From NCBI RefSeq assembly GCF_001308875.1, contig NZ_KQ465111.1, positions 124,001-188,000 of the forward strand: DNA of 64,000 bases, in the 5' to 3' direction. A program made the position numbers and the translations under genes. The DNA is from Lysinibacillus sp. ZYM-1. Lineage in GTDB: Bacteria; Bacillota; Bacilli; Bacillales_A; Planococcaceae. This document shows positions 41,543 to 64,000 of this stretch, piece by piece; positions within the stretch are counted from its first letter, which is position 1; every line of letters starts with the position of its first letter. A model generated the notes under the pieces. It made no database searches. It saw nothing but the letters and a program-made list of their open reading frames with translations, and was not told where the DNA came from.

Positions 41543-44916
<3,374 letters not shown>

Positions 44917-44935
44917 GCTATTGGGGGAGAAAGGT

Positions 44936-46582: not shown

Positions 46583-46585
46583 GCG

Positions 46586-48392: not shown

Positions 48393-48442
48393 TCTTGTAT
48401 GAATATTTTGCTAAAAAAAGAAATATTTCTAAAAATTACTAA

Positions 48443-48470
48443 TTGATAAATTGGTAGAACATGCTACTAT
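48443..48470 (+). promoter_or_regulatory. Putative sigma-A promoter for hfq
   Basis: TTGATA (48443-48448), 16-bp spacer, TACTAT (48465-48470), 40 bp before hfq. Confidence 0.55.
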
Positions 48471-48509
48471 AGGAATGAAGAGGTAGAAAGTTAGTAGGGA
48501 GGCCATTTG

Positions 48510-48740
48510 ATGAAATCAATCAACTTGCAAGATACATTCTTGAACCAACTACGTAAAAACAGTGTTTTTGTAACTGTATTTCTATTAAACGGATTTCAGT
48601 TAAAAGGGACTGTGAAATCTTATGATAATTTTACAGTTTTATTATTGGATGCTGAGAACAAGCAGCACCTGATTTACAAGCACGCCATTTCTACATTCGT
48701 TCCAGCTAAACAAATAGAGTTTTTAGAAACAGAAGCATAA
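48510..48740 (+). CDS. hfq: RNA chaperone Hfq
   Basis: 76 residues, ATG 48510 after TAGGGAGG. Sm1 motif [23 protein letters not shown] and Sm2 motif [10 protein letters not shown] (the YKHAI hallmark). Short Gram-positive form without the long C-terminal tail. Own promoter and terminator. Confidence 0.97.
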
Positions 48741-48752
48741 AAAAGATTGTTA

Positions 48753-48788
48753 AACAGTTAGTGTTCTCCACACTGGCTGTTTTTTTTG
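48753..48788 (+). terminator. hfq terminator
   Basis: AACAGTTAGTG / CACTGGCTGTT (two U-G pairs), short loop, eight to nine T. Confidence 0.9.
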
Positions 48789-48836
48789 CTTCAGGCTATA
48801 ATAATAAAGGAAATTGATATTTGGAGGACGAGTTTT

Positions 48837-49139
48837 ATGAAATCAATGGAAACAACACAATTATTAGAACTATTAGATGCAAATGAAGACCTATATATTA
48901 TTGATGTACGTGAAGAGGATGAAGTAGCACATGGCATGATTCCAGGTGCTCAGCATATCGCTCTTGGGACAATCCCTGAACGTATAGAGGAGTTAGATGG
49001 AACGAAGCCATATATTATCGTTTGTAAGGCTGGTGGCCGTTCTGCTAATGCTTGTTCTTATTTAGAGGCACAAGGATTTGATGTGACGAACCTTGAAGGC
49101 GGCATGTTGGCTTATGACGGAGAATTAGAATTTAAATAA
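48837..49139 (+). CDS. Single-domain rhodanese-like protein
   Basis: 100 residues from ATG 48837 (TTTGGAGGAC upstream; longer frame from 48786 runs through the hfq terminator). Active-site loop VCKAGGRS with catalytic Cys and Arg, preceded by IIDVREEDEVAHGMIPGA. Sulfur-carrier or sulfurtransferase, PspE/YqhL class; donor and acceptor unknown. Preceded by a TATAAT (48797-48802) but no clear -35. Last conserved chromosomal gene before the AT-rich island. Confidence 0.9.
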   Translation: MKSMETTQLLELLDANEDLYIIDVREEDEVAHGMIPGAQHIALGTIPERIEELDGTKPYIIVCKAGGRSANACSYLEAQGFDVTNLEGGMLAYDGELEFK

Positions 49140-49238
49140 ACATTTATGCACAAAGGGATAGATGTCTTTAAATTACTGACCTTTTTTGTAAAGAATTAAA
49201 GAGTACGGAATAAAATAATTACAATTTAATAAACCCTT

Positions 49239-49300
49239 ATACTCCCTATAGTAGACAGAATATAATTTAAAAATTCTGTTCTATTTTAGGGAGTATTTTT
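49239..49300 (+). terminator. Terminator-like hairpin after the rhodanese gene
   Basis: Two-part stem: ATACTCCCTA (49239-49248) with TAGGGAGTAT (49287-49296), and inner ACAGAAT/ATTCTGT, ending in TTTTT. About 100 bp after the rhodanese stop; it marks the left boundary of the island. Confidence 0.7.
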
Positions 49301-49632
49301 ATTTATAACAAATTGTGTGAATGGTAATTATTAAAATTTTGAATGAAGGGATTTATACAATATGAAAACTCTTTGGTGATTGAATTGGATTAGAATATTA
49401 TTTAATTTTGAAAAGAAAAATATAAAACTTTAAAAATACCGTTCTTGCAAATTATCTTGAAACCTATTATGTTAAGGCACAATTTACTTCTTAACTTACT
49501 TGTATTATTTCTAGATATGAAATTATGTATTTTCTCGAGAAATAAATAAAAGAAAGTCAAAAATTTTATCCTATAAAGATTAGTTAATTTGTCTTGATAT
49601 CAGTTTAGTGATTAAAAAACGACATGATCCTA
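49301..49632. other. AT-rich gene-free stretch at the island boundary
   Basis: About 330 bp of very AT-rich sequence with stops in all frames. I see no gene, tRNA, attachment-site-like repeat or recombinase remnant in it. Confidence 0.6.
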
Positions 49633-49833
49633 TTAAATGTGCAGTAAGCCAATTTTAATGGCTATTACAACAGCACCGACACGGGAATCAACATTTAGTT
49701 TTCTGATAATAGACGAGATATGATGCTCCACTGTTCTTTTGCTAATGCCTAATTCTTCACTAATATCATTATTTGTTTTATCCTCTGCTATCCGTTGTAG
49801 TACTTCTTGTTCTTTAGGTGTAAGCGTAATCAA
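49633..49833 (-). CDS. Stand-alone LuxR/GerE-type DNA-binding protein
   Basis: 66 residues on the minus strand, TTG start at 49833 with TAGGAGTG seven bases upstream. Whole protein is one LuxR_C helix-turn-helix: LTPKEQEVLQRIAEDKTNND, then ISEELGISKRTVEHHISSII and RKLNV. No receiver or ligand domain, the same plan and size as sporulation regulator GerE, though location (gerE is near sdhB in Bacillus) argues against it being GerE itself. Transcribed away from the biosynthetic operon and therefore its likeliest dedicated regulator (inference). Confidence 0.82.
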   Translation of the reverse strand: MITLTPKEQEVLQRIAEDKTNNDISEELGISKRTVEHHISSIIRKLNVDSRVGAVVIAIKIGLLHI

Positions 49834-50152
49834 CTAAAAACACTCCTATCTTGATTAAATATACCCTATATTACCATTCGTATACTTAATATTCTATATT
49901 ATGGATAAAAAATATTTCATAAAAAAAGTTACAATTTTATGTAATTATTTAAAAAAACACAAAAATTGCGTGAAATACGGATTTTTTTTTAAGGAAATTT
50001 TGGTAAATTTAAACTGCGAATAAAGAATGATTAAAACTATTTTAACCAAACAAAATAGTAATGAATTTTTGAGCATTGAAAATGAAGTTAAAGTTTTAGC
50101 GATAATTACATCTAATAATTTCTTTGAATTATATTATTACCTAAATAATTTA
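49834..50152. other. Divergent intergenic region of the biosynthetic island
   Basis: About 320 bp of extremely AT-rich DNA between the LuxR-type gene and the island promoter. CTATATTA occurs twice (49866-49873, 49894-49901). A 75-codon ORF beginning at 50027 has no ribosome site and runs through the promoter, so it is not called. Regulator-binding sites are expected here but none can be named. Confidence 0.5.
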
Positions 50153-50181
50153 TTGACAAATAAAAAAGTACATAATATATT
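50153..50181 (+). promoter_or_regulatory. Sigma-A promoter of the biosynthetic operon
   Basis: TTGACA (50153-50158), exactly 17 bp, TATATT (50176-50181). Predicted start near 50188 and an 85-nt leader carrying a perfect AT hairpin (TAAAATAAG 50209-50217 / CTTATTTTA 50222-50230) before the ribosome site. Confidence 0.72.
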
Positions 50182-50272
50182 AGTTTATGTAATTTATGGT
50201 ATTTTTTGTAAAATAAGATACCTTATTTTATATTTATACTTACAGAAATTATAAGGAGAGGAGGAAAAGAAA

Positions 50273-51409
50273 TTGGGAAATGAAAATATTCAGGAATGGG
50301 TTAAAAATAAAGAAAAAGAGCTACATATAAAAGTAGGATTAAATTTTTTAAATCAATATGCAATAAGTGTGATTTGCAAAATATTCTATGAAGAGGCTAT
50401 TTTTCGGAGTTTTGAGGCATTGACAGTAGAAGAAATCATTCAAAAAAAGGGTTATAGTGAGGCATCCTCAAAAAGGCCGCTAGAATTAATGTGTACTTGG
50501 TTATGTTCAAAGGATATTTTGAAAAAGGTAGTGGGTGAAGATCAAAAAGTTAGATACGCCATTACCAAGACTATGCCGTCACCTGATTTACTACAGCTTG
50601 AAAAAAGCGTAGTAGGAAGGACGATGCCAGGAGCAACACAGTTATTACAATTACCTCTTAAATATGCAAATGAAATTTTGATGGGTCAAACTACAAATGA
50701 AAAGTTATATGCTCACCATTCTGTACCACTTTGGCAATCTTATTTTAGCCATCCTGGTATGTATATTCCTTCTGAGATAGCTGCGCAGTTTATTTACAAT
50801 AAGATAAAAAATCGAACTGATCCAATAAGAATAATGGAAGTAGGAGCTGGTTCCGCAAATGGAACACGAGCATTATATGAATTATTACTTTCCAAAGGTC
50901 AATTGAATTTAGTCGAAAAGTTTATAATAAGCGATTTCTCAGAAGAATTTCTTGAAAATTGCGAAAGGGAAATAAAGAATAAATATGGTTCCCATGACAT
51001 CTTTGAATATAAATTGTTTGATCTTAATAGCTCCCCTGCCAAACAGGGAATAGAGAAAGCGTCAGTAGATTATATTTTAGGCGTTAATTGTTTGCATTAT
51101 ATTAAAGATTGGTCAATGCAGTTCCAAGAGATGCGTAGTATTTTGAAAGATGAAGGATGGTTTTTATCAGCTGGATATTTTAGAGATACGCTAAATGTTC
51201 CTTTCCATATTGAGTTACATGGTAGTTTTTTTGAAGAATACCATGATGTTGTACTAAATGAAAAATTCCGACCTGAATTCGGTATTATGACGCCGGAATT
51301 ATTTGAAAGTGCATTAATTAATTCAGGATATTCTGAAACTGAAATTTGGCCACAAAGAGATATCTGGGAAAATTTAGATTTTTACTGTGGTATTGTAGCG
51401 GGAAGATAA
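50273..51409 (+). CDS. SAM-dependent methyltransferase
   Basis: 378 residues, TTG start at 50273 after GGAGAGGAGG. N-terminal ~110 residues are helical and winged-helix-like, then a class I methyltransferase domain: motif I IMEVGAGSANGTRALYELL (residues 187-205), acidic DFSEEFLENCE, and VDYILGVNCLHYIKDW. Resembles methyltransferases embedded in or associated with polyketide synthases. Could methylate carbon or oxygen of an ACP-bound or released product. First gene of the operon, 38 bp before the ACP gene. Confidence 0.85.
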   Translation: MGNENIQEWVKNKEKELHIKVGLNFLNQYAISVICKIFYEEAIFRSFEALTVEEIIQKKGYSEASSKRPLELMCTWLCSKDILKKVVGEDQKVRYAITKTMPSPDLLQLEKSVVGRTMPGATQLLQLPLKYANEILMGQTTNEKLYAHHSVPLWQSYFSHPGMYIPSEIAAQFIYNKIKNRTDPIRIMEVGAGSANGTRALYELLLSKGQLNLVEKFIISDFSEEFLENCEREIKNKYGSHDIFEYKLFDLNSSPAKQGIEKASVDYILGVNCLHYIKDWSMQFQEMRSILKDEGWFLSAGYFRDTLNVPFHIELHGSFFEEYHDVVLNEKFRPEFGIMTPELFESALINSGYSETEIWPQRDIWENLDFYCGIVAGR

Positions 51410-51447
51410 TGAAAACTAAAAAACTAAAATAATAGGAGAATTAAATT

Positions 51448-51729
51448 ATGAATAATTTAACTAAAAATATTGAGAATGAAGTTAAGCAAATGATAGTTGA
51501 TCGATTAGGATTATTAGATGTTGAAGTAGAAAGCATTGATAATGATGCACCAATTTTTCTTTCTTTTGATGCAGAAGGCACAGGTTTAGGACTTGATTCT
51601 GTTGATGCATTGGAACTGGTTGTAGGGTTAAATGAAGTATTCGACATACAAGTAACTGATGAAGATATGGCTATTTTCCGTAATGTTTCTAGTATTGCAG
51701 ATTTTATTCGTGAGAAAAAAGGGGAATAA
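51448..51729 (+). CDS. Acyl carrier protein
   Basis: 93 residues, ATG 51448 after ATAGGAGAA. Acidic four-helix ACP with the phosphopantetheine serine in GLGLDSVDALELV (Ser51). Has an insertion before that motif (IFLSFDAEGTG) and a hydrophobic recognition helix, unlike the housekeeping FabC/AcpP. Carrier of the growing chain for the ketosynthase just downstream. No phosphopantetheinyl transferase is in the window. Confidence 0.92.
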   Translation: MNNLTKNIENEVKQMIVDRLGLLDVEVESIDNDAPIFLSFDAEGTGLGLDSVDALELVVGLNEVFDIQVTDEDMAIFRNVSSIADFIREKKGE

Positions 51730-51735
51730 AACGGA

Positions 51736-52947
51736 ATGGCTAAGAGCTCTAATCGAGTTGTAGTAACAGGACTTGGTATTGTTGCCCCAAACGGATACGA
51801 TAAAGAAACGTTTTATCAAGCATTGTTAAGTGGGAAAACTGGAATTGGCAGTGTTGAACGAATCGACATGTCTGATTTCCGTACTCAGTTAGCGGGTGAA
51901 GTGAAAATTACTTTTCCGGAAATGGCCAAAGAGCACAACTATGACCGGACGATATCATTGGCTTGTCTTGCATTAAACGAAGCATTAAATGATTGTGGAA
52001 TGGATTCTACATATTTAAGTAGTTTAGGCCCACGTGCTGGGATGAGTTTTGCTACTTCTTTAGGTGGTAATTCTAGAATGATGGAATATTTGAAAGAAGA
52101 AATAGATGAAAGAAAAACCCAGCCAGAATGGTTAGCAGATTTAAATTTATTTTCTAATTACATTGCTAAATATGCTGGAGTTAAAGGAAATATAAGTTCC
52201 ACTACATCTGCTTGTGCAGCAGGAACGGCTGCGGCAGGTATTGGATTTGATCAGATTAGATTAGGGCGTGCAGATGTAATGATAATTGGAGGTTCGGATC
52301 CATTAACTGAATTTTCCATCGCGGGCTTCCATTCTTTAAGGTCTTTAAGTCCTACTGCAAGTAAACCGTTTGATGAAAATCGTGATGGTTTAGTAATTGG
52401 AGAAGGTGCATCAATAATTATTTTAGAAAATTATGAGCATGCTTTACAACGGGGAGCTCATATTTATGCAGAAATAATGGGCTATGGGTTAAGTAATGAT
52501 GCTTATCATGTTACTTCACCTGATCCAAATGGTGGTGGTGCTATACGAGCTATGGAAATGGCATTACTAGATGCGGGTTTGAAGCCAGAGGATGTAGATT
52601 ATATCAATGCCCATGGTACTTCAACAATTGTAAACGATAAGATGGAGCTAAATGCCATTAGTCAAGTATTCCATGAGCATGCTTATAAAATTGCTATATC
52701 TTCAACCAAATCAATGACTGGACATTGTCTCGGTGCTGCGGGAAGTATTGAATTAGCAGCATGTATTTTAGCATTAGAAGGGGAGTTCATTCCACCTACT
52801 GCAACATTAGAAAAAACAGAAGAAGACTTTAAAGAATTCCGTTTAATTAAAACCAAGGGCAAAAAAGAGCCGATAAAAGTTGCTATGTCTAATTCTTTTG
52901 CCTTTGGAGGAAATACAGCATGTGTCGTTTTAAAAACAATCGATTAA
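51736..52947 (+). CDS. Beta-ketoacyl-ACP synthase, catalytically intact (KS-alpha)
   Basis: 403 residues, six bases after the ACP gene. FabF-like thiolase fold with full triad: Cys160 in SSTTSACAAG, His293 in NAHGTST, His330 in KSMTGHCLGAAG, with Lys325. Condensing enzyme extending an ACP-bound chain with malonyl-ACP. Genome position away from any fab operon and pairing with the degenerate KS at 62323 suggest it is the active half of a KS-CLF heterodimer rather than housekeeping FabF. Confidence 0.93.
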   Translation: MAKSSNRVVVTGLGIVAPNGYDKETFYQALLSGKTGIGSVERIDMSDFRTQLAGEVKITFPEMAKEHNYDRTISLACLALNEALNDCGMDSTYLSSLGPRAGMSFATSLGGNSRMMEYLKEEIDERKTQPEWLADLNLFSNYIAKYAGVKGNISSTTSACAAGTAAAGIGFDQIRLGRADVMIIGGSDPLTEFSIAGFHSLRSLSPTASKPFDENRDGLVIGEGASIIILENYEHALQRGAHIYAEIMGYGLSNDAYHVTSPDPNGGGAIRAMEMALLDAGLKPEDVDYINAHGTSTIVNDKMELNAISQVFHEHAYKIAISSTKSMTGHCLGAAGSIELAACILALEGEFIPPTATLEKTEEDFKEFRLIKTKGKKEPIKVAMSNSFAFGGNTACVVLKTID

Positions 52948-52972
52948 TGGAATGTTAGAAATGAGGTGCAGC

Positions 52973-54532
52973 TTGGTTAATACTGATTACGATGTTATTG
53001 TTATTGGTTCAGGTATAGGTGGTCTTTCCTCAGCGAGCGCTATGGCAAATAAAGGATATAAGGTTTTAGTTTGTGAGGCCGGAGGAAGAATTGGCGGTTA
53101 CTGCCAATCGTTTGAAAGAAAGGGATTTCGTTTTAACTCATCCATTCATAAAATTGGCGGTCCCTTTCCTCGTTATTTAACGGAACAATTTCTAAGTTTA
53201 ATGGGTGAGAGTAATCAACTTGAGTGGACTGAGTTCGAGGAATACGTTCAGGTCGGAAATATTAAAGTTAATGCTGGGTCGAAAGCAATGAAGGAAGATT
53301 TGAAAAAACATTTTCCTCATGAATCTACTCAGTTAGATACCTTTTTTTTCGATATTCAATTAGCGTTTAAAGAATTAATCTATCTTGAAAAAAACAGAAA
53401 TAACATTACAGCATTTAATTCGGCAGCTATGAAATTACTGATGCAATATCAAGTTATAACGATAGAGCAATTGTTACATAAGTATTTTCAGGATGAACAT
53501 TTACGCGGTATTTTATATGCTCTTTGCGATGGTACGCCAGGACAAAGTGCAATCGTATTAGTTGTATTTTTAAATTTGCTTATTGGGAATTCAGTTCTAC
53601 CAGTTGGGGGAGCTGAAAGTATACTGAATATTATGCTAAAAGTTGTCGAAAGAGCCGGAGGGAATTTACTATTAAATTCTCGAGTAAACCGTATTTTAGT
53701 TGAGGAAGGACGAGTGGTTGGAGTAGAGGTAGATGGAAAACAAATCTTTAGTAGATTTGTAGTCTCTAATGCAGATATCTATACTACATATGAGAAGTTA
53801 ATCGGTCAAGAGCATATTTCACCTCGATTTCTTCATAAATTACAAAAAGTTTGGCAATCTAGTTCATCCTGCTTTTCAGTTTGGTTAGGTTTAGATTGTC
53901 CAATACAGAATTTAGGTTGGAATGGGCAAAATATGAGTTATTACCAAAAATATGATCGATTATTCGAGATGAAAAAAGATCTATTAACTCCCGGTGGTAA
54001 ACTTCCAAGTGACACTTACTGTTGGATAGGTACTTCTGCAAATCTTGATCCTACATCATCGCCAAATGGATATTCTCAAGTTTCTTTAGGAATACCTATT
54101 TCATACCAATTTGAGAATAATTGGGGAATTGAAAACGGGAGAAGAGGTACAGAGTATCGTAAGACAAAAAAGCGACTTGCAGAACAACTAATTGATTCCG
54201 TGGAACATATTTTACCAGGCTTGAAAAATCATATTATTGTAACCACTATTGCATCCCCACATACTTTCGAGAGATATTCACTTAACACCGGAGGAGCTTA
54301 CTTAGGTTTTGCATTTAATCCTTCTTATTTACAGGATAGGATGAGACCAGAATCAAAAGGTTTGTTACAAGGCTTGTATCTTAGTAGTAACTGGAGTTCT
54401 ATGGGAGGAGGATTTATCAAGGTAATGATGGAAGCATTAAGGGGCGCAGATTTAATGCTAATGGAAGACAAGCGTACAGATTTCTATGATTTTCAAAATC
54501 AATACTTTTTTGAACAAATGTCAAAAGTTTAA
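52973..54532 (+). CDS. Phytoene-desaturase/CrtI-type FAD oxidoreductase
   Basis: 519 residues from TTG 52973 (GAGGTG just upstream; ATG 52952 has no ribosome site). N-terminal FAD motif VIVIGSGIGGLSSASAMANKG with G12-x-G14-x-G16-G17, then EAGGRIGGYCQSFE, and C-terminal NTGGAYLGF plus GLYLSSNW...GGGFIKVMMEA. Family members desaturate, saturate or isomerise polyenes (carotenoid desaturases, retinol saturase). No carotenoid synthase lies in the window, so the substrate is more likely the chain made by this cluster. Confidence 0.85.
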   Translation: MVNTDYDVIVIGSGIGGLSSASAMANKGYKVLVCEAGGRIGGYCQSFERKGFRFNSSIHKIGGPFPRYLTEQFLSLMGESNQLEWTEFEEYVQVGNIKVNAGSKAMKEDLKKHFPHESTQLDTFFFDIQLAFKELIYLEKNRNNITAFNSAAMKLLMQYQVITIEQLLHKYFQDEHLRGILYALCDGTPGQSAIVLVVFLNLLIGNSVLPVGGAESILNIMLKVVERAGGNLLLNSRVNRILVEEGRVVGVEVDGKQIFSRFVVSNADIYTTYEKLIGQEHISPRFLHKLQKVWQSSSSCFSVWLGLDCPIQNLGWNGQNMSYYQKYDRLFEMKKDLLTPGGKLPSDTYCWIGTSANLDPTSSPNGYSQVSLGIPISYQFENNWGIENGRRGTEYRKTKKRLAEQLIDSVEHILPGLKNHIIVTTIASPHTFERYSLNTGGAYLGFAFNPSYLQDRMRPESKGLLQGLYLSSNWSSMGGGFIKVMMEALRGADLMLMEDKRTDFYDFQNQYFFEQMSKV

Positions 54533-54564
54533 AAGGTTAATTCAATTATAATTGGAGGTCTATT

Positions 54565-55302
54565 TTGAAACGACCAACTACTGTGAATATTCTAGATTGC
54601 GGAAGAATCCGTTTTAAAGGGGATTCCAATTGGATGCCCGTACAAGCTTTTTTAATTCAAACATCTGAGGTAAATATTGTAGTAGATGCTGGGTTTCATC
54701 CTGATATTATAACAAATACAAAAGGATATTTAGGAATGCTATCCTCGGTAGTAGAGATAGAAGTAACAAAAGAAAACCTAATTGATCACCAAATTAAACA
54801 ACATAATCTAGAAGTTTCTAATATAGATAAAGTGATATATTCCCATTTACACTTTGATCATTGTGGAGGAGCTGTCCTTTTTGAGGGGAAAACAACTGAA
54901 ATGGTACAGCTTAAAGAATTTGAATCAGCTCATAATGCTCATTTTCACTTTGAATATAATAAAAAAGATATTGATTATGCTAAAAATTTCAAAAAAATTA
55001 AAGGTAATTTAGATTTACTAGGTAATGGAGAAATCCATCTTATCGAGACACCTGGACATTCTGCTGGTCACCAATCTGTATGGATTGAAAATTCAGATGA
55101 TTCAGATATTTTATTGCTGTGTGATGCCTCTTATTCAGTACATCAATTTATCCACCGTGGCCATTCAAAATATCCTTTTAAAAAAGAATTAGAGATTGCA
55201 TCTATAAATCGACTGCATAATATGATTGAAAATCGGAATAAACCTGTATGCGTATACGCTGGTCATGATCCTATTCCTCAAATAATTTCAGAAAGGTATT
55301 AA
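54565..55302 (+). CDS. Metallo-beta-lactamase-fold hydrolase, lactonase-like
   Basis: 245 residues, TTG start at 54565 after TTGGAGGT. Complete dinuclear zinc site: HLHFDH at residues 94-99, His165 in TPGHSAGH, Asp187 in LLLCDASYS, His234 in YAGHDPIP. Closest in pattern to N-acyl-homoserine lactonases. Within the cluster it could hydrolyse a lactone or thioester intermediate, or edit a stalled chain. No signal peptide. Confidence 0.85.
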   Translation: MKRPTTVNILDCGRIRFKGDSNWMPVQAFLIQTSEVNIVVDAGFHPDIITNTKGYLGMLSSVVEIEVTKENLIDHQIKQHNLEVSNIDKVIYSHLHFDHCGGAVLFEGKTTEMVQLKEFESAHNAHFHFEYNKKDIDYAKNFKKIKGNLDLLGNGEIHLIETPGHSAGHQSVWIENSDDSDILLLCDASYSVHQFIHRGHSKYPFKKELEIASINRLHNMIENRNKPVCVYAGHDPIPQIISERY

Positions 55303-55314
55303 AAGGAAAAATAT

Positions 55315-56661
55315 ATGGAGAATAAATGTTTTGATGTTGTTGTATTAGGTGATAACTTGATTGCAATTACTGCCTCATTGTTACTAATGAAAAGAGGGCT
55401 TAAGGTTCAACGAATAGGGCAATATCGCGAATATGATAAACAGCCTTGTTTTCCACTTTATCATCAGGACGCGGATCAAGGAATTCTTGGTTTAATCTTA
55501 AGAGAAGTAGGAATATCAATCCCAACAAAGCCTATTTACCATATAGATAATTCTTTTTTTCCTGATTTTGAATGGAAGAGAACCCGCTCTCTCGTTGAAC
55601 AAAATAACTCTCTAGTGAAATTATTTCCTGATGATATTGAAGCGATAAATGTCTATTTTGAGGTAATAGAGGGACTTGGAAAGGAATGGTTTGCCTTATT
55701 GGAAGGGAATATAATTTCAAATCCAAATAAATTCCCCTATACAATAAAATACAGTAACCTTTCTTATGTAAATTTCATTGAAAAATTGTTTAAGGGCAAT
55801 CAAAAACTTATTAGTATTTTTTGCATTGCCCTTCCATGTAGTGACGTTGCTTTAACTGTTATGGCGGGTTACCTATACGGACAGGTTTATGATGGATGTG
55901 TAATTAATGGTGGAATTCATGAAGTTAAGCATCAAATGGAAATGATTTTGAATGAAGAAAATGTACATCTCCATAATACTAATTTACCAATCACTATTAT
56001 AAATGAGGATACCCGTTATAAAGTGCAGTCTCATCATCATACTGAGTGCTATGCCAAATGCGTACTAGATACAAGAGGAGACTTACAAATTTATAAAAAA
56101 CAGTTGTTTCCAGTTTCTAAATTATCTTTTCTTAGTATATTGCTTGAAGTAGAAGAGAATATCCAAGGTATACCAAGTACTGAAATTTGGTATGAATACC
56201 CTGATTATGATGTGCATTCTTATTATAAGAAAATGGAAAATGGGACGATACCAACTGATATTGCTTTTACTCTTTGGAACCCAAATGCAAGAGCAGGAAA
56301 AGTAGAGAATGAATTGCGTATAGATATACCATTACCAGCCCTTGGAAATAAAGATAAATATAATGAAATAGTTCATCGGGTTTTACGAAAATTAGAAGAT
56401 AGAATTACCAATCTTAAAGGCAAAATTATCAATCAACAAATATTTACGCCAGAGATGCATGAACAGTGGTCTAATTTGAGTGGTGGATCAGGAACAAGAT
56501 GGGCATTTTCAGTTAAGCAGGTCTTTAAAAATCCAATGCAGATGGAGGTAGTACCTTCATATTATAGTACTCATGAATGGGGATTTGCATGGTTTTCTGT
56601 AGCTTATATTGTAGCAAATCAAATTACTTTAAAATTTGAAAAAAATGCCGTGAAGAAGTAA
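55315..56661 (+). CDS. Degenerate flavoprotein-like protein
   Basis: 448 residues, ATG 55315 after AAAAGGAAAA. The start looks like a Rossmann FAD site (DVVVLGDNLIAITASLLLMKRGLKV), but only the first glycine of GxGxxG remains (G12-D-N-L-I-A), so FAD binding is doubtful. Overall layout is like the CrtI-type enzyme encoded two genes upstream, including an aromatic C-terminus (HEWGFAWFSVAYIVANQI). Probably a diverged paralogue acting as a partner subunit. Intact reading frame without frameshifts, so not a pseudogene. Confidence 0.7.
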   Translation: MENKCFDVVVLGDNLIAITASLLLMKRGLKVQRIGQYREYDKQPCFPLYHQDADQGILGLILREVGISIPTKPIYHIDNSFFPDFEWKRTRSLVEQNNSLVKLFPDDIEAINVYFEVIEGLGKEWFALLEGNIISNPNKFPYTIKYSNLSYVNFIEKLFKGNQKLISIFCIALPCSDVALTVMAGYLYGQVYDGCVINGGIHEVKHQMEMILNEENVHLHNTNLPITIINEDTRYKVQSHHHTECYAKCVLDTRGDLQIYKKQLFPVSKLSFLSILLEVEENIQGIPSTEIWYEYPDYDVHSYYKKMENGTIPTDIAFTLWNPNARAGKVENELRIDIPLPALGNKDKYNEIVHRVLRKLEDRITNLKGKIINQQIFTPEMHEQWSNLSGGSGTRWAFSVKQVFKNPMQMEVVPSYYSTHEWGFAWFSVAYIVANQITLKFEKNAVKK

Positions 56662-56684
56662 GTATATGGGATGGGGAGAGAAAT

Positions 56685-57140
56685 GTGACACAAATATTTG
56701 TATTTAAAACAACTCCGCGATTTAGCGATACTGACGCTTATGGCATTGTACATCATAGTAACTATTATAAAATTTTAGAAGAAGCAAGAATTAATTTTGC
56801 AAAAAGCGTACTGGATTTAAGTATGAAAAATTTCGATGAATTAGGCTATCAATTTCCTGTGATAAAAAGTGAATGTAATTATAAAATCCCCATATTTTAT
56901 GAGGATAATTTAAGAATAGAAATAAAATTTAGTATAGAGAAAGCTGCTAAATTAAATTTCTTTTATAAAATTTATAATGATACAACTAATCAAATTCATG
57001 CGGATGCGAAGACTTCCCATGTTTTTGTAGAGCAAGACGGGAAATTATGTTTAACCTATCCAGAATGGTTTATTTCAAAGTTAAGATTAGCATTAGAAAA
57101 GCAAGAATATCAATTTGATTACAGTAAAAAGGGAAGTTGA
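56685..57140 (+). CDS. Hotdog-fold acyl thioesterase (4HBT)
   Basis: 151 residues, GTG 56685 after GGGGAGAG. Motif RFSDTDAYGIVHHSNYYKILEEAR with the catalytic Asp17 and HH at 23-24, as in 4-hydroxybenzoyl-CoA/YbgC thioesterases. Candidate chain-release enzyme hydrolysing the finished acyl-ACP or acyl-CoA. Four bases separate its end from the ATG of the next gene. Confidence 0.88.
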   Translation: MTQIFVFKTTPRFSDTDAYGIVHHSNYYKILEEARINFAKSVLDLSMKNFDELGYQFPVIKSECNYKIPIFYEDNLRIEIKFSIEKAAKLNFFYKIYNDTTNQIHADAKTSHVFVEQDGKLCLTYPEWFISKLRLALEKQEYQFDYSKKGS

Positions 57141-57144
57141 AACG

Positions 57145-58173
57145 ATGATTCAAACAAAGGAAAAAATATATTTTCCAAAACTCTTAACTTTTCACGAGGA
57201 GTCAAATAATGTATTAATCAGTGCCGTCAGAACAAAATTAGCTGCGGATGGACTTCGTGTTAGTCCTGCATTACTTTTATTACTCGGTGGAGGAATAGAC
57301 TTTTTTTATCGCAGTCATATTGATGAAGGAAAAAATGAAAGTTATGCATCCGCAGTTAATCCTCACTTTTTAAGAGATTTATGTTTGCCATTGGGTTTGT
57401 ACTTGGAAGATTTCAGAACTATTGATATCAGACGTTTACAACAAGATATAAAAAGAAACCTGCTATTGAGAGTCGCCCCTCCGATGATAGAAATTCCAGG
57501 TTGCATGTTGAATAGTGCAAATTTGGAAATATATCCAAGGATATTAATGCTTGTAGCAGGCCTATCTGAAGATGAATCCGAACTCATTGTTGTACATCCT
57601 ATGAAAAGGGAATATTTGCGTATTGCATATTCTTCTCTCGCTTCAATTTGTGAAGCAGAAGGTGGCATTCGTTGGTTAATGATAAATAGTCCTTCATTCT
57701 CAAAACCAGTGTTTCCACCTTTAGAATTAGGATTAAAACAATCTCTACAATTATCTTCATTTCGTAAAGTAAATGAATCGAATTTATTAGGAATGACTTT
57801 ACTAAGAGGAGAACAAGCTTTTAAGAAATGTATAAACGACTTGTATTTTATAGGTACAGCATCAAATGAATCTGTACAGGAACATTACCTTCAGCATTTA
57901 ATGAGTAATACAAATGTAGAGTTTGGAGTTACTTGGGGCAGAACCTTACTAGCCGATGCATTGCAAGAAGTTAATTCCTTTTTTTCGATTGAACATATTT
58001 TACAAGATGTTAAAACACTAGCAGACAATTGGAAGATATGGACAGAAATTATTAGCAGTCGTAAAGATGATTATTCTACTATATCAAAACAAGCAATTGA
58101 AAAACTTAATGATATATATATTACAGAAAAGAAAATAGCAGAATTTTTTATTAACTCCACTGAAGTTAGATGA
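57145..58173 (+). CDS. BtrH/DUF4872-like protein, degenerate copy
   Basis: 342 residues from ATG 57145 (AAAGGGAAG upstream). First of four consecutive related genes. The segment SPALLLLLGGGIDFFYRS corresponds to the FGLxxGLxFxY block of its neighbours, and RWLMINSPSF onward to the second half. It lacks the N-terminal Cys present in the other three (FHEESNNVLI instead) and the His before the second strand pair. Probably a non-catalytic partner or a diverged specificity. Relationship to BtrH is by layout and position; confidence lower than for its neighbours. Confidence 0.6.
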   Translation: MIQTKEKIYFPKLLTFHEESNNVLISAVRTKLAADGLRVSPALLLLLGGGIDFFYRSHIDEGKNESYASAVNPHFLRDLCLPLGLYLEDFRTIDIRRLQQDIKRNLLLRVAPPMIEIPGCMLNSANLEIYPRILMLVAGLSEDESELIVVHPMKREYLRIAYSSLASICEAEGGIRWLMINSPSFSKPVFPPLELGLKQSLQLSSFRKVNESNLLGMTLLRGEQAFKKCINDLYFIGTASNESVQEHYLQHLMSNTNVEFGVTWGRTLLADALQEVNSFFSIEHILQDVKTLADNWKIWTEIISSRKDDYSTISKQAIEKLNDIYITEKKIAEFFINSTEVR

Positions 58174-58186
58174 GGTGTATATAAAA

Positions 58187-59302
58187 ATGATATTAAGCCA
58201 ATATCCTCACCGCTTAAGTATTTCATGCCGATCTGGGTCTTTAAGAGATGTTCTCGAATATCATGGTTTTCCCTTTAGTGAAGCAATGATATTCGGGTTA
58301 GCCAGTGCTTTATCATTCGCTTATGTTCGACCAAGCTCAACATCGATGAATACGGAATTTGTTTTAATAAATGGTTCGATTCATTTCGATTACCATGAAG
58401 TTAGCTCTTTATTAAGATTACACTATTCTAATTATTTTCCAAGAAATGATAGTGATGCTTGGGAAATAGCACGACAAGCTATAAAAGATAAACAACCTGT
58501 TTTATTAAGTACTAGTTTACCTATATACCTGCCTTATTTAAAAACGTCCCAAGTACCTTCATCAATATCAACACCAAAAAGCGAAAATCAGCAAAGATTT
58601 ATTGAACAATCACAACAAATATTTTCTAGACTACGGACTCCTGTAGGAAATCATATTACTCAACTGATCGGTTATGATGAAGACAAAAACGAAGCTTATA
58701 TTTTAGAAAATAATATATCTATAGTTCAAACAATTCCGCTATCAGTTTTGACTGAATCTCGTAATCCTAAAATAGAATGCATTAAATCTCCAAATAATGA
58801 AATGATGATTTTTTATCCACCTAAAAAAATGCCTTCTTTAAATTTTGCTATTAATACAGCTATTTATCGCATGGTTCATTCATTTTTGTATTCTAGTTAT
58901 CCTAGCAGTGGTTGGAAAGCAATTAAGAATTTAAAAGACGATTTTCCACATTGGCCTGAGTTAATGTCAAATGACAAGTTGCAAAATTCGCTATTCATGA
59001 TGCATTACTTGTCTGAAACTACTGGGGGCGGAGGGTTTTACCGGAAATTATATAGCCGTTTTCTTTTTGAGGCAGCAAAAATTCTTGGAGATACGGTATT
59101 ACTTGAATGTTCGACAGAGTATCGGGAAATTGCAACCATGTGGAGACAAGTAACAAATTTATGTATGAACGGAGCATTACAACCTGAAAAAACAACTCGT
59201 AATCCTGAACTACTAGAGTTGTTGAACATACTGGTTATTCGTGAATATGATTTAGCTAGAAAGTTAGAAGCTCACATAAAATTGGGAAAAGAAAATGATT
59301 AA
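58187..59302 (+). CDS. BtrH N-terminal/DUF4872-type protein
   Basis: 371 residues from ATG 58187 after GATGAGGTG. N-terminal block HRLSISCRSGSLRDVLEYHG with Cys14, FSEAMIFGLASALSFAY; then His in GNHITQLIGYDEDKNEAYILEN, a C39-peptidase-like Cys-His arrangement; C-terminal helical DUF4872 part with TTGGGGFYRKLYSRFLFEAA. BtrH of butirosin biosynthesis moves an acyl group from an ACP to an amine, so an acyl-transfer role from the cluster ACP is likely. Closely similar to the next protein: tandem duplicates. Confidence 0.78.
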   Translation: MILSQYPHRLSISCRSGSLRDVLEYHGFPFSEAMIFGLASALSFAYVRPSSTSMNTEFVLINGSIHFDYHEVSSLLRLHYSNYFPRNDSDAWEIARQAIKDKQPVLLSTSLPIYLPYLKTSQVPSSISTPKSENQQRFIEQSQQIFSRLRTPVGNHITQLIGYDEDKNEAYILENNISIVQTIPLSVLTESRNPKIECIKSPNNEMMIFYPPKKMPSLNFAINTAIYRMVHSFLYSSYPSSGWKAIKNLKDDFPHWPELMSNDKLQNSLFMMHYLSETTGGGGFYRKLYSRFLFEAAKILGDTVLLECSTEYREIATMWRQVTNLCMNGALQPEKTTRNPELLELLNILVIREYDLARKLEAHIKLGKEND

Positions 59303-59329
59303 TATTTGTCAAATAGGAGGAGACACATT

Positions 59330-60463
59330 ATGAAAATAGTCGATTTTCCTCATCGATTAAGTGTAACGTGTAGGGCCGGTAACATTCGAGATTTGATGGA
59401 GTATGAAGGGTATAAGTTTACGGAAACTATGTTATTTGGATTAAGTAATGGCTTGTCTTTTGCGTATCTCTTACCTGAAGAGACTAAGGAAACAGTTGAT
59501 TTTGCAATGATATCTGGTGTTACACATAACCAATTTGAAGAATTAGCTTCATCACTTCGAATGCATTATGCATCTTGTATACCAACAGATAGTGAGCTGG
59601 TTTGGGAGCATATAAAAGAGTTATTACAAGAGGGAAAACCGGTTTTCTTAGATGTAGTTTTATCCTTGTATTTAAAATATTTAGATAAACCTGGTTTACC
59701 AGGATCAAGTGAGACGCCACATACTGCATCAAACGATTTTGTTTCTACTTGGGATCGCATGTTTTCTCAATTACAGACACCAGCGGGTACTCATGTCACG
59801 ATGCTTATTGGTATAGATGAAATAGAAAATCAAGCCTATATTGTCGAAAATAACTTATCGCGTATTCAAACAGTTCCACTTGACGTTTTGAAATATGCAT
59901 GTAATCCACCTATGACAGTGACAAATCATCCTCAAAATCGTTACGGTGTGTATTATTTACCAACAAAATTTCCGAATATCAAGGAAGCAACCAAAAATGC
60001 AATATACGCAAATATGCATTCATTTTTATACACAAGTAGAAAATATAATGGAATAAATGCAATTGAACGTTTAGCGAAACAAATGCCCAATTGGTTAGAG
60101 CTTATGCCGCGAGAACAAGTAAGTATAACAATGGGGATGATGTTTTATATATCAGAAAAGGCGAGTGGTGGAGGATTTTATAGGCGGTTATATGCAGGAT
60201 TTCTTCGTGAGGCTGCGCACCTACTTGGTGAAGATAGATTAGAAGAAATATCTAAAGATTACTACAAGTTAAGCAATATGTGGAGAGAACTGAATAAGCA
60301 GTTAGCTAAAGGGGCAGATTTCCCAGAATCAATCTTAAATTCAACCGATTTGAAAGTTTCTATTAATAAAATCGCTGCCGAAGAACGGCGAATTGCTGAG
60401 TGTTTATTAAGTCTGGCAGAAACTTGGAGGATGGGAAATGAAAGTTTTATCTCAATGGATTGA
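59330..60463 (+). CDS. BtrH N-terminal/DUF4872-type protein
   Basis: 377 residues from ATG 59330 after AGGAGGAG. HRLSVTCRAGNIRDLMEYEG (Cys14), FTETMLFGLSNGLSFAY, GTHVTMLIGIDEIENQAYIVEN (His), and KASGGGFYRRLYAGFLREAA. Same length and block order as the preceding protein, clearly a recent paralogue, yet diverged enough to suggest different substrates. Overlaps the next gene by 26 bp, so translationally coupled. Confidence 0.78.
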   Translation: MKIVDFPHRLSVTCRAGNIRDLMEYEGYKFTETMLFGLSNGLSFAYLLPEETKETVDFAMISGVTHNQFEELASSLRMHYASCIPTDSELVWEHIKELLQEGKPVFLDVVLSLYLKYLDKPGLPGSSETPHTASNDFVSTWDRMFSQLQTPAGTHVTMLIGIDEIENQAYIVENNLSRIQTVPLDVLKYACNPPMTVTNHPQNRYGVYYLPTKFPNIKEATKNAIYANMHSFLYTSRKYNGINAIERLAKQMPNWLELMPREQVSITMGMMFYISEKASGGGFYRRLYAGFLREAAHLLGEDRLEEISKDYYKLSNMWRELNKQLAKGADFPESILNSTDLKVSINKIAAEERRIAECLLSLAETWRMGNESFISMD

Positions 60464-61487
60464 TGTGCATCATATTGGTTCACATTGTGCCTCAACAGCA
60501 ATGCGTACCATATTTTTAGGATATGGCTATGCGTTTAGTGAAGATCTATGTTTTGGTTTGGGCAGTGGTCTAGGATTTACATATCAAAAATATCAGTCAG
60601 TCGATTATTACTTTTTTACTGGACGGAATGATAGCCTCGAAGAAAATGCAGTAGGTATTCTAGGTGGGTATATTGAGACAAAGCGAACAGATGATCCAAT
60701 AGTAGGTTGGCAATGGGCTAAGCAGTGGATTGATTTAGGTGTTCCCGTCATTTTAGATTTAGATATGATGTACTTACCTTATATGAAAGATAAATTACAA
60801 ATAGAGCAATCATTTCATTTTGGTTTACATAATGCTATTTTAGTTGGCTATGATGAAGAAAAAAGTGTAGCTTTCCTATTGGACTATTTATGGAATGATG
60901 TTATAGAAGTTAGTTTGAAGGATTTGGAAAATGCTCGTAATTCTAAAACCTCACCAATTAAACCAGATAACGGATTAAAAGCTATCGTATTGCCAAAAGG
61001 ACAAAGGGATATAAATCTAATTATTAATGAAGCAATCAGAACAAATATATTTAGAATGAAAAGGCCGTTTGCCTTTAAAATGGGGCTTCCAGGTATCAAA
61101 CTTTTTGCGCGAGAAATAAGAATGTGGAATAAACTATTGCCTGAAAAAGAAAGGCAAACGCATGCTTATATGGCATCCATGCTGTTTGAAAAGGTAGGAA
61201 CAGGTGGAGGCAACTTTAGAAGAATGTATGCTCGTTATCTTAAAGAGTGCGCTACTTTAACTGGAAACCAACAGTATCTTAATAGTTATAAAAATTATAT
61301 GGAGTTATTCAGATGTTGGCGGCAATTAGCTAAACTTTTTGAACTTGGTGCTATAGATCCAAATACCGGTATTTTCGCTGATGATCCAGAAATCGAAATA
61401 TTTTTAGAAAAAATGGTCGATTTAGAATATAAAGCACTAGAAAATTTAGAAGCTATCATTTCAATAAAGGAGGTAATGACATGTTAA
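60438..61487 (+). CDS. BtrH N-terminal/DUF4872-type protein (canonical His-Cys)
   Basis: 349 residues, ATG 60438 after GGAGGATGG. This copy has the classic BtrH-type start HHIGSHCASTAMRTIFLGYG (Cys17), FSEDLCFGLGSGLGFTYQ, then HFGLHNAILVGYDEEKSVAFLLDY and TGGGNFRRMYARYLKECA. Probably the most family-typical of the four and the best candidate acyl transferase or chain-release enzyme. Overlaps fabZ by 7 bp. Confidence 0.82.
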   Translation: MKVLSQWIDVHHIGSHCASTAMRTIFLGYGYAFSEDLCFGLGSGLGFTYQKYQSVDYYFFTGRNDSLEENAVGILGGYIETKRTDDPIVGWQWAKQWIDLGVPVILDLDMMYLPYMKDKLQIEQSFHFGLHNAILVGYDEEKSVAFLLDYLWNDVIEVSLKDLENARNSKTSPIKPDNGLKAIVLPKGQRDINLIINEAIRTNIFRMKRPFAFKMGLPGIKLFAREIRMWNKLLPEKERQTHAYMASMLFEKVGTGGGNFRRMYARYLKECATLTGNQQYLNSYKNYMELFRCWRQLAKLFELGAIDPNTGIFADDPEIEIFLEKMVDLEYKALENLEAIISIKEVMTC

Positions 61488-61906
61488 ATGTGCAGGACAT
61501 AAGAAAAGCATTGCCACATCGCTACCCATTTTTAATGGTAGATAAAATTGTAGAAATTGAACAAAATCAACGAGTTGTTGGTTATAAAAATGTTTCATTA
61601 AATGAACCATGGGTTTCAGGGCATTTCCCTGATGAACCGATTTTTCCTGGAGTTTTAATATTAGAGACCATGGCTCAAATCGGAGGATTTGCTTTCTGGT
61701 CACCTAATTCAACAGACGGCCAGCTAAGAGGTTATATATCTGGGATGGATAAAATTAAATTTGTTCATCCTGTTTATCCAGGAGATAAATTAATGATCGA
61801 GGCAACTGTAACAGCAAAGTACAATCAACATGCACAAGTCAAATGTGAGGCTAAAGTTGATGAAAAGTTAGTTGCAAAATCGGTAATATCTTATGTATTT
61901 AAATAG
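61481..61906 (+). CDS. 3-hydroxyacyl-ACP dehydratase (FabZ)
   Basis: 141 residues, ATG 61481 after AAAGGAGG. LPHRYPFLMVDKI, GHFPDEPIFPGVLILETMAQIGG with catalytic His48 and Glu62. Dehydrates the 3-hydroxyacyl-ACP made by the ketoreductase at 63519. Not in the usual FabZ operon context, so a pathway-specific paralogue. Overlaps the next hotdog gene by 14 bp, which suggests the two proteins form a heteromer. Confidence 0.93.
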   Translation: MLNVQDIRKALPHRYPFLMVDKIVEIEQNQRVVGYKNVSLNEPWVSGHFPDEPIFPGVLILETMAQIGGFAFWSPNSTDGQLRGYISGMDKIKFVHPVYPGDKLMIEATVTAKYNQHAQVKCEAKVDEKLVAKSVISYVFK

Positions 61907-62300
61907 AAATAGTTTAAAATCGCTCTTAATGCAAAGAGAACCGATGTTGATGTTAGAGTCCATTCAAAAGTTGGATTTAAACGTACTTATTGCTGTTCCA
62001 AGTTATGATGATATTTGGACGAGCGACAATAAAGTTTCGTTAATCAGTATTGTGTTGGAAGCAATGGGTCAAGCTGCAGAGATTTTATGGAGACTTAACG
62101 GTTTAAAAGGTAAGGCATATCTTGCAATGATTGATAAGGTTGAAATTGATTCTTTGAACTTATTACCGAAAGCAGATGTAAAAATAAGAGCACAAATTTT
62201 AAGCTCTTTTGGAAATTTTAAAAAAAGTAAAATCATCTATGAATACAAAGAAAAGAAAATATTGTCTATAGAAACAACACATTTTTTTGACCCTATTTAG
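61893..62300 (+). CDS. FabZ-like hotdog protein lacking the catalytic histidine
   Basis: 135 residues, ATG 61893 within the end of fabZ; ribosome site weak, consistent with coupled translation. Same block order as FabZ (REPMLMLESI for HRYPFLMVD; SIVLEAMGQAAEILW for the central helix with Glu56) but the GHFPDxPxxPG loop is replaced and its His is gone. Paired dehydratase subunits, one diverged, are found in bacterial polyene pathways such as aryl polyene ApeI/ApeP; here the diverged one may supply a substrate tunnel or the second catalytic acid. Confidence 0.72.
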   Translation: MYLNRNSLKSLLMQREPMLMLESIQKLDLNVLIAVPSYDDIWTSDNKVSLISIVLEAMGQAAEILWRLNGLKGKAYLAMIDKVEIDSLNLLPKADVKIRAQILSSFGNFKKSKIIYEYKEKKILSIETTHFFDPI

Positions 62301-62322
62301 ATAACTTATGTGGAGGTTATGT

Positions 62323-63498
62323 ATGGAACGTGTAGTAGTTACTGGAGCTGGCATTTTATCACGTGCTGGTGTAGGAATTGAGCAATTTTGGGATAATGTA
62401 GTACAAGGAAAATGTAGTGAGGATAAAAATATAACTCTTGATTTATCTTCTTTGTCTGATTTAAGAACAGTAAAAAAAATGGATCGATTTTCTCATTTAA
62501 CTTTACTAGCAACTTTAATGGCTATAGAAAATAGCAAAATGGATTTAGCTCAATTGAATGTTGAGAAAATTGGAACTATTTTTAGTACAGTGTATGGATC
62601 TCTACAAAGTAATGAAGCATTTGCTAGAAAGTTAATAACTAGTGGCTCAAATTATACTAGCCCTACTATTTTTACAAGGACTGTAGCAAATGCTTGCATT
62701 GGTCAAACATGCATTAGTACTGGACTTAAAGGAGTAAGTACTATGTTAATGGGAAGCAATAGTATCGGTTATGCATATGACTTAATTTGTACAGGGAAAG
62801 CAAATGCAATTGTAGCTGGTGGAGTAGAAGAATATCACGCTGACGTAGCAAATTCATATAAAGAACTTAACTATATAACTACAGTAGATAACAATCAAGA
62901 GATAATTAGTAGACCGTTCGATACGGAGCGTGATGGTATTGCTCTAAGAGAAGGTGCTGGTGTGGCTGTAATAGAGGCACTCGAACATGCTGAACAACGT
63001 CATGCTCCAATTTTATGTGAAGTATTAGGATATGGTGGTGCCTTTTCTGAAGTAAGTCCAGAAAGAGCTTTGTCTCCAATAGAAAGTAAACCCTTTGAAA
63101 ATTCTATGAAATCTGCGTTATTAGATGCAGGATTAGAGCCAGAAAATATTGATGTAGCTATTCTTTCTGCAAGTGGCTCACGTTATGGTGATTTAGCAGA
63201 AGCTTTAGCTTTTCATAATGTTTTTGGTACATATGCAAAGAATATTCCTGTTACGTCTGGAAAAGGACTGATAGGAGAAACGATAGGGGCATCCGCTTCT
63301 ATAGGATTTATCATAGGTGCACTTAGTTTGTATTATCAAATCATTCCTAAGACTGTAGGTTGTACTAAACCAGATAGTGAAATTCACTTAAATGTTGTAA
63401 CTGACACTAAGAAAATGCCGATTAAAAATATTTTAATAAACAGCTTTGATGTTGGTGGTAATCTATCAAGTATTGTTTTAACTAAAATATCACAATAA
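62323..63498 (+). CDS. Ketosynthase-like chain-length-factor candidate (KS-beta)
   Basis: 391 residues from ATG 62323 after TGGAGG. FabF-like throughout (RVVVTGAGILSRAGVGIEQFW, RPFDTERDGIALREGAGVAVIEALEHA), but all catalytic residues are lost: the nucleophile region reads KGVSTMLMGSNSIGYA (Met/Leu at 141-143 instead of Cys), NAHGT is SASGS, and the KxxxGH motif is GKGLIGET. A ketosynthase homologue without Cys-His-His is the definition of a chain length factor. Its expected partner is the intact KS at 51736, 9.4 kb upstream rather than adjacent. Confidence 0.82.
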   Translation: MERVVVTGAGILSRAGVGIEQFWDNVVQGKCSEDKNITLDLSSLSDLRTVKKMDRFSHLTLLATLMAIENSKMDLAQLNVEKIGTIFSTVYGSLQSNEAFARKLITSGSNYTSPTIFTRTVANACIGQTCISTGLKGVSTMLMGSNSIGYAYDLICTGKANAIVAGGVEEYHADVANSYKELNYITTVDNNQEIISRPFDTERDGIALREGAGVAVIEALEHAEQRHAPILCEVLGYGGAFSEVSPERALSPIESKPFENSMKSALLDAGLEPENIDVAILSASGSRYGDLAEALAFHNVFGTYAKNIPVTSGKGLIGETIGASASIGFIIGALSLYYQIIPKTVGCTKPDSEIHLNVVTDTKKMPIKNILINSFDVGGNLSSIVLTKISQ

Positions 63499-63518
63499 CT
63501 TTTGAAATGAGGTAGGAC

Positions 63519-64000
63519 ATGAAATTAAAAGGAAAGGTCGCAATCATTACAGGTGGATCGAGGGGGATTGGAAGAGCAATTGTAGAAAAGTTAGCTCAAG
63601 AAGGTGCTGATATTGCTTTTACTTATAACTTCGACAAAAAATCTGCGGAGCAAGTGGTTGTTGACATTGCAAAATACGGAAATGATATAAAAGCCTATCA
63701 GTTAGATTTAAAAGATTTATCGCAGATAAAGTCTTTTGTAAATTGTGTAACGGCTGATTTCGGTAAAATTGATATTCTAGTTAACAATGCTGGTGTTACA
63801 AAAGACAGTTACCTAATGATGATGAGTGAAGATTCTTGGAATGAAGTAATTGACACAAATTTAAATGGATTATTTTACATAACTAAGCAAGTTATCCCAT
63901 CGATGATTAGACAAAAAAATGGATCTGTCATTAATATTACGTCTGTAGGCGGGATTATCGGTGTAGCTGGTCAAACAAATTACTCTGCAGCAAAAGCAGG
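63519..64000 (+). CDS. 3-oxoacyl-ACP reductase (FabG), N-terminal part
   Basis: Partial: 160 codons visible from ATG 63519 (GAGGTAGGA upstream), running off the right edge. SDR with TGGSRGIG at residues 11-18, NNAGV, SVINITSVGG with the catalytic Ser, and NYSAAKAG containing the YxxxK pair. NADPH-dependent reduction of the 3-oxoacyl-ACP formed by the cluster ketosynthase. It completes a KS, KR, DH, ACP set; an enoyl reductase is not seen in the window. Confidence 0.93.
   Translation, partial: MKLKGKVAIITGGSRGIGRAIVEKLAQEGADIAFTYNFDKKSAEQVVVDIAKYGNDIKAYQLDLKDLSQIKSFVNCVTADFGKIDILVNNAGVTKDSYLMMMSEDSWNEVIDTNLNGLFYITKQVIPSMIRQKNGSVINITSVGGIIGVAGQTNYSAAKA

Follow-up and report, generated by a model that had tools for sequence, protein, structure and literature searches.

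Which product is encoded by the AT-rich run of co-directional genes lying in the genome of Lysinibacillus sp. ZYM-1, and where might this run come from? The DNA analysed (the window) is a stretch of 64,000 nucleotides (G000:C6:124001-188000), whose right end enters an island of genes for a putative type II (dissociated) polyketide synthase (PKS); the contig continues to position 203333, and the right end of the island was read as L010 (window position = L010 position + 63000). The cluster is real, complete-looking and rare. It was probably acquired by horizontal transfer and would encode a reducing, polyene-forming type II PKS, supporting that part of the original prediction which had put a reducing, dissociated type II PKS into a core-genome interval of Bacillota. 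On gene content, the best reading is that of a variant that would make an amide-linked, perhaps flavoprotein-remodelled polyene.

The island spans positions 49140-75094 (about 26 kb) between a rhodanese and a TRIC-like gene, and its left 57% (49140-64000) lies in the window. The 90% DNA identity shared with the congener G042 ends with the rhodanese gene at 49139 and returns at 75095; the G+C content is 32.9% in the island versus 37.9% in the left flank and 38.9% in the right one. The longest direct repeat joining the island ends measures 12 bp and was taken as chance, and Rfam disclosed nothing at gathering score in 44000-64000 or in L010. Twenty-four genes follow one another on the plus strand from 50273 to 74671, separated by -26 to +46 bp (at the first starts given by the ORF finder), in the following order: methyltransferase (MT), acyl carrier protein (ACP), ketosynthase (KS), CrtI1, metallo-β-lactamase (MBL)-fold hydrolase, FAD2, thioesterase (TE), BtrH0, BtrH1, BtrH2, BtrH3, FabZ, FabZ2, chain-length factor (CLF), FabG, a second short-chain dehydrogenase/reductase (SDR2), class III aminotransferase, CrtI3, DrrA-like ATPase, two ABC-2 permeases, AcpS, MacB-like ATPase and FtsX permease. 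Discrete ACP, ketoreductase and dehydratase thus share one operon with KS and CLF. All the parts listed in the original prediction (ACP, intact KS, triad-less KS, FabZ, His-less FabZ, FabG, methyltransferase and CrtI-type FAD enzyme) were recovered by Pfam or profile alignment; that list was correct and incomplete, omitting FAD2 (55315), the MBL-fold hydrolase (54565), the thioesterase (56685) and, on the right, the last 10.7 kb of the operon, which, as anticipated, lies outside the window and adds nine genes after FabG, up to 74671.

In the scheme that we favour, AcpS would prime the ACP, and KS together with the catalytically dead CLF would perform iterative condensation of malonyl-ACP; each round would include reduction by FabG and dehydration by FabZ (with the His-less FabZ2), yielding a polyenoyl-ACP, whose double bonds the CrtI-like flavoproteins, with the degenerate FAD2, might then isomerise, reduce or desaturate. 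The class III aminotransferase would supply an amine, to which the BtrH-type cysteine acyltransferases would transfer the ACP-bound chain as an amide; MT, SDR2, the MBL-fold hydrolase and TE would serve in tailoring or editing. The product would be exported by the two ABC systems, and expression might be controlled by a small GerE protein.

Much of this gene set recurs in other genomes, and a chance assemblage is therefore excluded. Judged by CLF, the cluster is present in one of the 32 genomes of the genus (its own), the best match outside that genome reaching 37% identity among 261 genomes of the family (those 32 included); in plasmid records, in a search that may omit records near the genome of the window, the best matches were 32% identical for CLF and 30% for BtrH3. 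The species-genome collection was scanned with BtrH3 (one scan on two peptide patterns, of limited reach), giving 65 stretches and five loci, in Tumebacillus lacus, Butyrivibrio sp. YAB3001, a Clostridiales metagenome-assembled genome (MAG) and two Ruminococcus MAGs. T. lacus DT12 (taken to be the same as G379, BtrH3 having an identical position in both) harbors much of the set in nearly the island order, at 34-71% identity (MT, ACP, KS, CrtI1, FAD2, TE, BtrH0, BtrH2, BtrH3, FabZ, CLF, FabG, SDR2, aminotransferase and CrtI3), together with a MacB-like ATPase and two permease-like frames (FtsX by eye), and with one BtrH1/2-type gene versus two in the island. In the Clostridial loci the set is partly rearranged, at 21-60% identity: those of Butyrivibrio and Ruminococcus hold BtrH, CrtI1, ACP, KS, FAD2, CLF, FabG, SDR2, TE, BtrH0, BtrH3 and FabZ, besides a FabZ2-like frame, further CrtI-like genes and MBL. 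A phosphopantetheinyl transferase is supported by Pfam in two of the Clostridial loci, and aminotransferase, MacB-like and FtsX-like genes lie upstream in Butyrivibrio and in one Ruminococcus, the two read in that direction; the Clostridiales MAG locus is truncated on the left and contains the BtrH0-to-CrtI part only. No earlier description of the cluster was found in the open-access literature, a result with no antiSMASH or MIBiG comparison behind it.

At E 1e-50 the BtrH3 profile recovered one of 397 genomes of the Butyrivibrio family, one of seven of the T. lacus family and one of 347 of the family of G621 (in each case the genome itself), as well as two of 391 in the class of G621, namely G621 and G1100. 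DUF4872 matches occur in 24 of 398 Bacilli, with three or more only in G000 and G379; among the 23 matching genomes other than G000, the neighbourhood was read in G379 and G369. G369 was discarded as a relative, no other cluster gene lying within 50 kb of its BtrH gene, and so was G1100, with no KS or ACP in 20 kb around its own. In G1100 the BtrH gene adjoins a class III aminotransferase-like gene (L079 10352-12924; 31% identical to that of the island), possibly forming an acyl-amine pair. Upstream of the Butyrivibrio cluster (L081 7927-10000), carboxylase-like and malonyltransferase-like frames (by eye) might represent a private malonyl supply, and three Clostridial loci (L062 1078-1932, L064 1190-1954, L065 916-1680) encode a protein of 254-284 aa after their first BtrH gene, the L064 copy having no Pfam match.

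KS (51736..52947, plus strand like all the operon genes; Pfam, alignment and tree) retains Cys160, His293, Lys325 and His330, whereas the same columns of the profile alignment are occupied in CLF (62308..63498; alignment and tree) by Met146, Ser287, Lys319 and Glu324; CLF keeps the KS fold and is five residues shorter just before the Cys position. The five cluster CLFs have all lost the Cys and both His, share the shortened stretch and show Glu for the second His and Ser or Ala for the first; in those from Clostridia, reading without the gap brings Leu to the position of the Cys. An inactive CLF is thus paired with KS by its residues (five KS and five CLF rows, the island's own pair by profile alignment), the heterodimer being predicted. 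In a tree of 31 of 32 rows, from which E. coli ApeC (240 aa) was left out, the cluster KSs form one group (100/100) and the cluster CLFs another (100/98), each dividing into Bacilli and Clostridia. The FabFs group together at 89/87, with KS and CLF outside them on a weak backbone, and two Streptomyces highly reducing-like rows are long branches placed away from both cluster clades. The joint branching of both KS proteins with housekeeping FabF/FabB, which the original prediction had set as its own refutation, was not seen in this tree, and a housekeeping FabF origin for the two was set aside on the separate FabF group, for KS without statistical rejection (p 0.066). Grouping CLF with FabF (p 0.031) and joining CLF and KS in one clade (p 0.038) are both marginally disfavoured, the latter speaking, marginally, against an origin of CLF by recent duplication of the island KS. 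With one exception, a FabF subfamily model, the NCBIfam KS models stay under their cut-offs on KS, which speaks against a firm filing of KS with any named KS class. Separately, several family members (L012, L013, L014, L016 and L020) possess an additional FabF-like KS bearing the motif ISAHATST; in L012 and L016, the two read, its gene lies opposite one for a helix-turn-helix protein (by eye), and the surrounding 4 kb contain no second PKS gene.

Four catalytic families of the island are accompanied by a partner lacking catalytic residues, i.e., KS/CLF, FabZ/FabZ2, CrtI/FAD2 and BtrH/BtrH0. FabZ (61481..61906; PF07977, with TIGR01750 over cut-off) displays GHFP and the ETMAQ Glu; FabZ2 (61893..62300), without a Pfam match, aligns to it by profile (probability 90.9%), retaining the Glu and lacking the catalytic His. 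FAD2 (55315..56661) also has no Pfam match, is recognised by hhalign as a relative of CrtI3 (98.8%), and has lost the acidic residue along with two of the GxGxxG glycines; the glycine motif is lost in four of its five members. The ketoreductase FabG (63519..64262, its end falling past the window edge at 64000) is assigned by family models, and the two SDRs match the broad adh_short_C2 family.

Some observations limit the reading set out above. KS comes nearest to FabF-type chains by score alone (4ls5 is presumably the FabF of B. subtilis), and forcing KS and FabF into one group costs 10.5 log units without being rejected (p 0.066). The pattern of inactive partners is incomplete in T. lacus, where FAD2 has an intact GxGxxG and the search for FabZ2 gave no match. 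Moreover, deducing a polyunsaturated chain from the lack of an enoyl reductase, as had been done originally, is unsafe because the CrtI-like enzymes may themselves reduce: two such flavoproteins with an intact GxGxxG are present in the island (CrtI1, 52952..54532, with PF01593 over cut-off, and CrtI3), and there are at least three CrtI-like genes in each Clostridial locus. The foremost alternative, unlikely in our opinion, is built on this point and assumes a largely saturated chain, with CrtI-like flavoproteins or the housekeeping FabI working as enoyl or polyene reductases and an amino-lipid or lipoamide as the product. CrtI1 and CrtI3 are indeed nearest to carotenoid isomerase/CrtI/CrtD models, even though far below the cut-offs (for CrtI1, TIGR02730 and TIGR02734 are well below), and the Clostridial hosts are anaerobes, so that an oxygen-dependent role such as desaturation is unlikely for these proteins. 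However, none of the island proteins is conspicuous as a dedicated enoyl reductase of any known family, and the role of the flavoproteins is putative under either view.

The favoured polyene reading ends with an amide, which had been suggested as a possible link. Of the four BtrH-type proteins initially counted, three stand: BtrH1 (58175..59302), BtrH2 (59306..60463) and BtrH3 (60438..61487) have both BtrH_N and DUF4872 over the Pfam cut-off and keep the catalytic Cys and His. The fourth, BtrH0 (57115..58173), has no Pfam match and is a remote relative, aligning by profile to BtrH1-3 with a probability of 94.9-97.4% (97.4% against BtrH1/2) and showing, at the positions of their Cys, His and Asp/Glu, respectively Val, Ile or a gap, and His. 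The amide linkage becomes more plausible because the BtrH3 model, of middling quality, finds its best fold matches, over the whole length, in CcbD, AziU3 and CtaG; the spacing of Cys17, His131 and Asp149 resembles that of C11, H128 and D144 in the CtaG variants named in the entry titles. The BtrH3 profile retrieved no relative among the PDB sequences (best E 0.72). On the strength of the predicted structure, amide release by the BtrH proteins is likely. The opposite possibility, that they make esters, pass the chain from one carrier to another or function like those of dialkylresorcinol-type systems, leaving the product without an amide, appears rather unlikely. The only NCBIfam match of the BtrH proteins is DarH, a BtrH-related acyltransferase (82-129 bits versus a cut-off of 300), and a 'BtrH-like peptidase' is mentioned for a dar cluster in the available part of PMC3949708; against this, the island contains no KAS III-type (DarB-like) match, and an aminotransferase is present in all four loci read far enough.

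It might also be supposed that the genes are a lipid-modifying offshoot of fatty acid synthesis, serving the membrane rather than a secreted secondary metabolite. The FabF-like score of KS agrees with this, and TE (4HBT/YbgC-type, 56685..57140; PF13279) and the MBL-fold hydrolase (54565..55302; PF00753, motif HxHxDH) could release free acids; the sporadic occurrence, in a single genome of the genus, the two ABC transport systems and the possession of its own ACP (51448..51729; PF00550, GLDSV site), AcpS and CLF make such a role improbable. ACP is 58-71% identical in four relatives; MBL is 30-33% identical in the Clostridial loci and was not found in T. lacus. That the island is silent or decaying and without a product, as its rarity and AT-richness could suggest, is very improbable, given 24 open, tightly spaced frames and catalytic residues kept wherever inspected (KS, FabZ, FabG, SDR2, MBL, CrtI1, CrtI3 and BtrH1-3).

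Concerning the remaining features, MT (50273..51409; PF08242, E 4.3e-9) is a SAM methyltransferase, and the expectation of a methylated product fares unevenly, with a homologue at 45% identity in T. lacus and no match in the Clostridial stretches read. Position 49633, at which the cluster had been made to start, is the end of a stand-alone, 66-aa LuxR-type GerE regulator encoded on the minus strand (49633..49833; PF00196, E 1.1e-21), divergent from the operon. A promoter-like TTGACA-17-TATATT (50153..50181, plus strand, 11/12 matches) lies upstream of the first gene; the scan gave 19 sites against 14.9 +/- 3.7 in shuffles and is weak evidence for it. The site falls inside the reading frame 50027-50254, which has no family match and is probably spurious.

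The interval itself differs among congeners. The distance from miaA to the YnbB gene, where both lie on one contig, measures 28.5 kb here, and in congeners it can be as short as about 4 kb, with four of them at 17-23 kb; it is therefore a site of variable cargo. In G042 the gap corresponding to the island amounts to about 3 kb and includes reading frames resembling EamA and CobT (named by eye). At the same site, G028, G044 and G047 possess GerE domains 73-77% identical to that of the island, the one in G047 forming the terminal part of a 183-aa protein. In G028 and G047, GerE has ABC genes and a radical-SAM protein whose end is SPASM-like as neighbours (the SPASM match of G047 being just below cut-off); comparable ABC genes occur in G044, where one stretch is masked. 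Other cargo is common to G038 and G047 (L082 5608-15229; L083 2171-11782), namely an ABC system, two SDRs and a sensor-like and a regulator-like protein (mostly named by eye). Downstream of the site in G047, the YnbB-like gene is broken into two frames (G047:C1:1486980-1488235).

A bolder proposal, which we advance tentatively and do not regard as the expected outcome, is that of a new type II subfamily of Bacilli and gut Clostridia, in which each of four families has a partner deprived of catalytic residues and the product would be a polyene linked as an amide and remodelled by flavoproteins; within one host genus, the cluster would occupy a slot beside a small GerE gene whose cargo is swapped, including for radical-SAM/ABC cassettes. 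If true, a distinct CLF lineage and an amide-forming release step would be added to the reducing type II PKSs, and such pathways would reach rumen and gut Clostridia, where host-active polyketides matter; the pks cluster of Lactobacillus reuteri, according to the part of PMC6498181 available, activates the aryl hydrocarbon receptor. The four catalytic/non-catalytic pairs offer material for asking why type II systems retain dead paralogues, and the compact gene set, which looks complete, is suited to expression in Bacillus.

How, then, does the island relate to known systems? Pfam disclosed no aryl-starter domain (ammonia lyase, acyl-CoA/AMP ligase) and no radical-SAM domain in the 25 island proteins, in agreement with what had been noted for the window, and no GcvT-type (CylF-like aminomethyltransferase) domain in the island proteins; KAS III-type, DarA and DarB models gave no match in 20 of them. 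Ladderane clusters contain radical-SAM enzymes, and dialkylresorcinol/flexirubin clusters contain DarA- and DarB-type proteins. Membership of the aryl polyene, ladderane and granadaene (cyl) groups was rejected on these grounds, as was that of the dialkylresorcinol/flexirubin group, the DarH model also staying under its cut-off; a cispentacin type II PKS-like assignment was discarded with the AmcF model reaching 257.1 bits on KS versus a cut-off of 325. Compared with AziU3, CcbD and CtaG, BtrH3 shows 9-13% identity, and the island combines three such proteins with a fourth deprived of catalytic residues in one type II PKS cluster. Chain C of PDB entries 9s5h/9s5i, whose chains B and C are two KS-like proteins, falls on the side of the cluster CLFs at a 97/93 branch, and its second His is likewise replaced by Glu; unlike them, it has a full-length Cys loop, with Val at that place. 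No paper on these entries was found in the open-access literature.

The following likenesses rest on the portions available of the papers cited. The granadaene-type cyl operons, including a cyl-like stretch of a Priestia plasmid (L068), share with the island a bacillotal host, FabG, FabZ, ACP, KS, phosphopantetheinyl transferase and thioesterase, granadaene being a polyene joined to ornithine (PMC6985545, PMC6498181); the island differs in having CLF, BtrH and CrtI-like proteins and no GcvT-like protein, malonyltransferase or glycosyltransferase. The fun and pks clusters of L. reuteri are likewise type II PKS-like systems of Bacillota with predicted polyene products, pks including a metallo-hydrolase; they are likened here by description rather than by sequence, and no BtrH or CrtI is named in those portions (PMC6498181). 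The aryl polyene cluster of E. coli CFT073 (L067) has KS, CLF, ketoreductase, dehydratase, ACP, thioesterase and methyltransferase in common with the island (PMC8358021), which is without a second FabB-like KS, acyl-CoA synthetase, LolA, MMPL and glycosyltransferase and has BtrH and CrtI-like genes. Finally, the highly reducing type II PKS of ishigamide (Iga11/12) resembles the island in its KS-CLF, ketoreductase, dehydratase and ACP and in repeated elongation, reduction and dehydration (PMC10698177, PMC8358021). In comparison with it, the island CLF represents a separate lineage in our tree (whose rows do not comprise the Iga sequences), with Met for Cys and a shortened stretch, and the island adds BtrH proteins, CrtI-like flavoproteins, an aminotransferase and MacB/FtsX.

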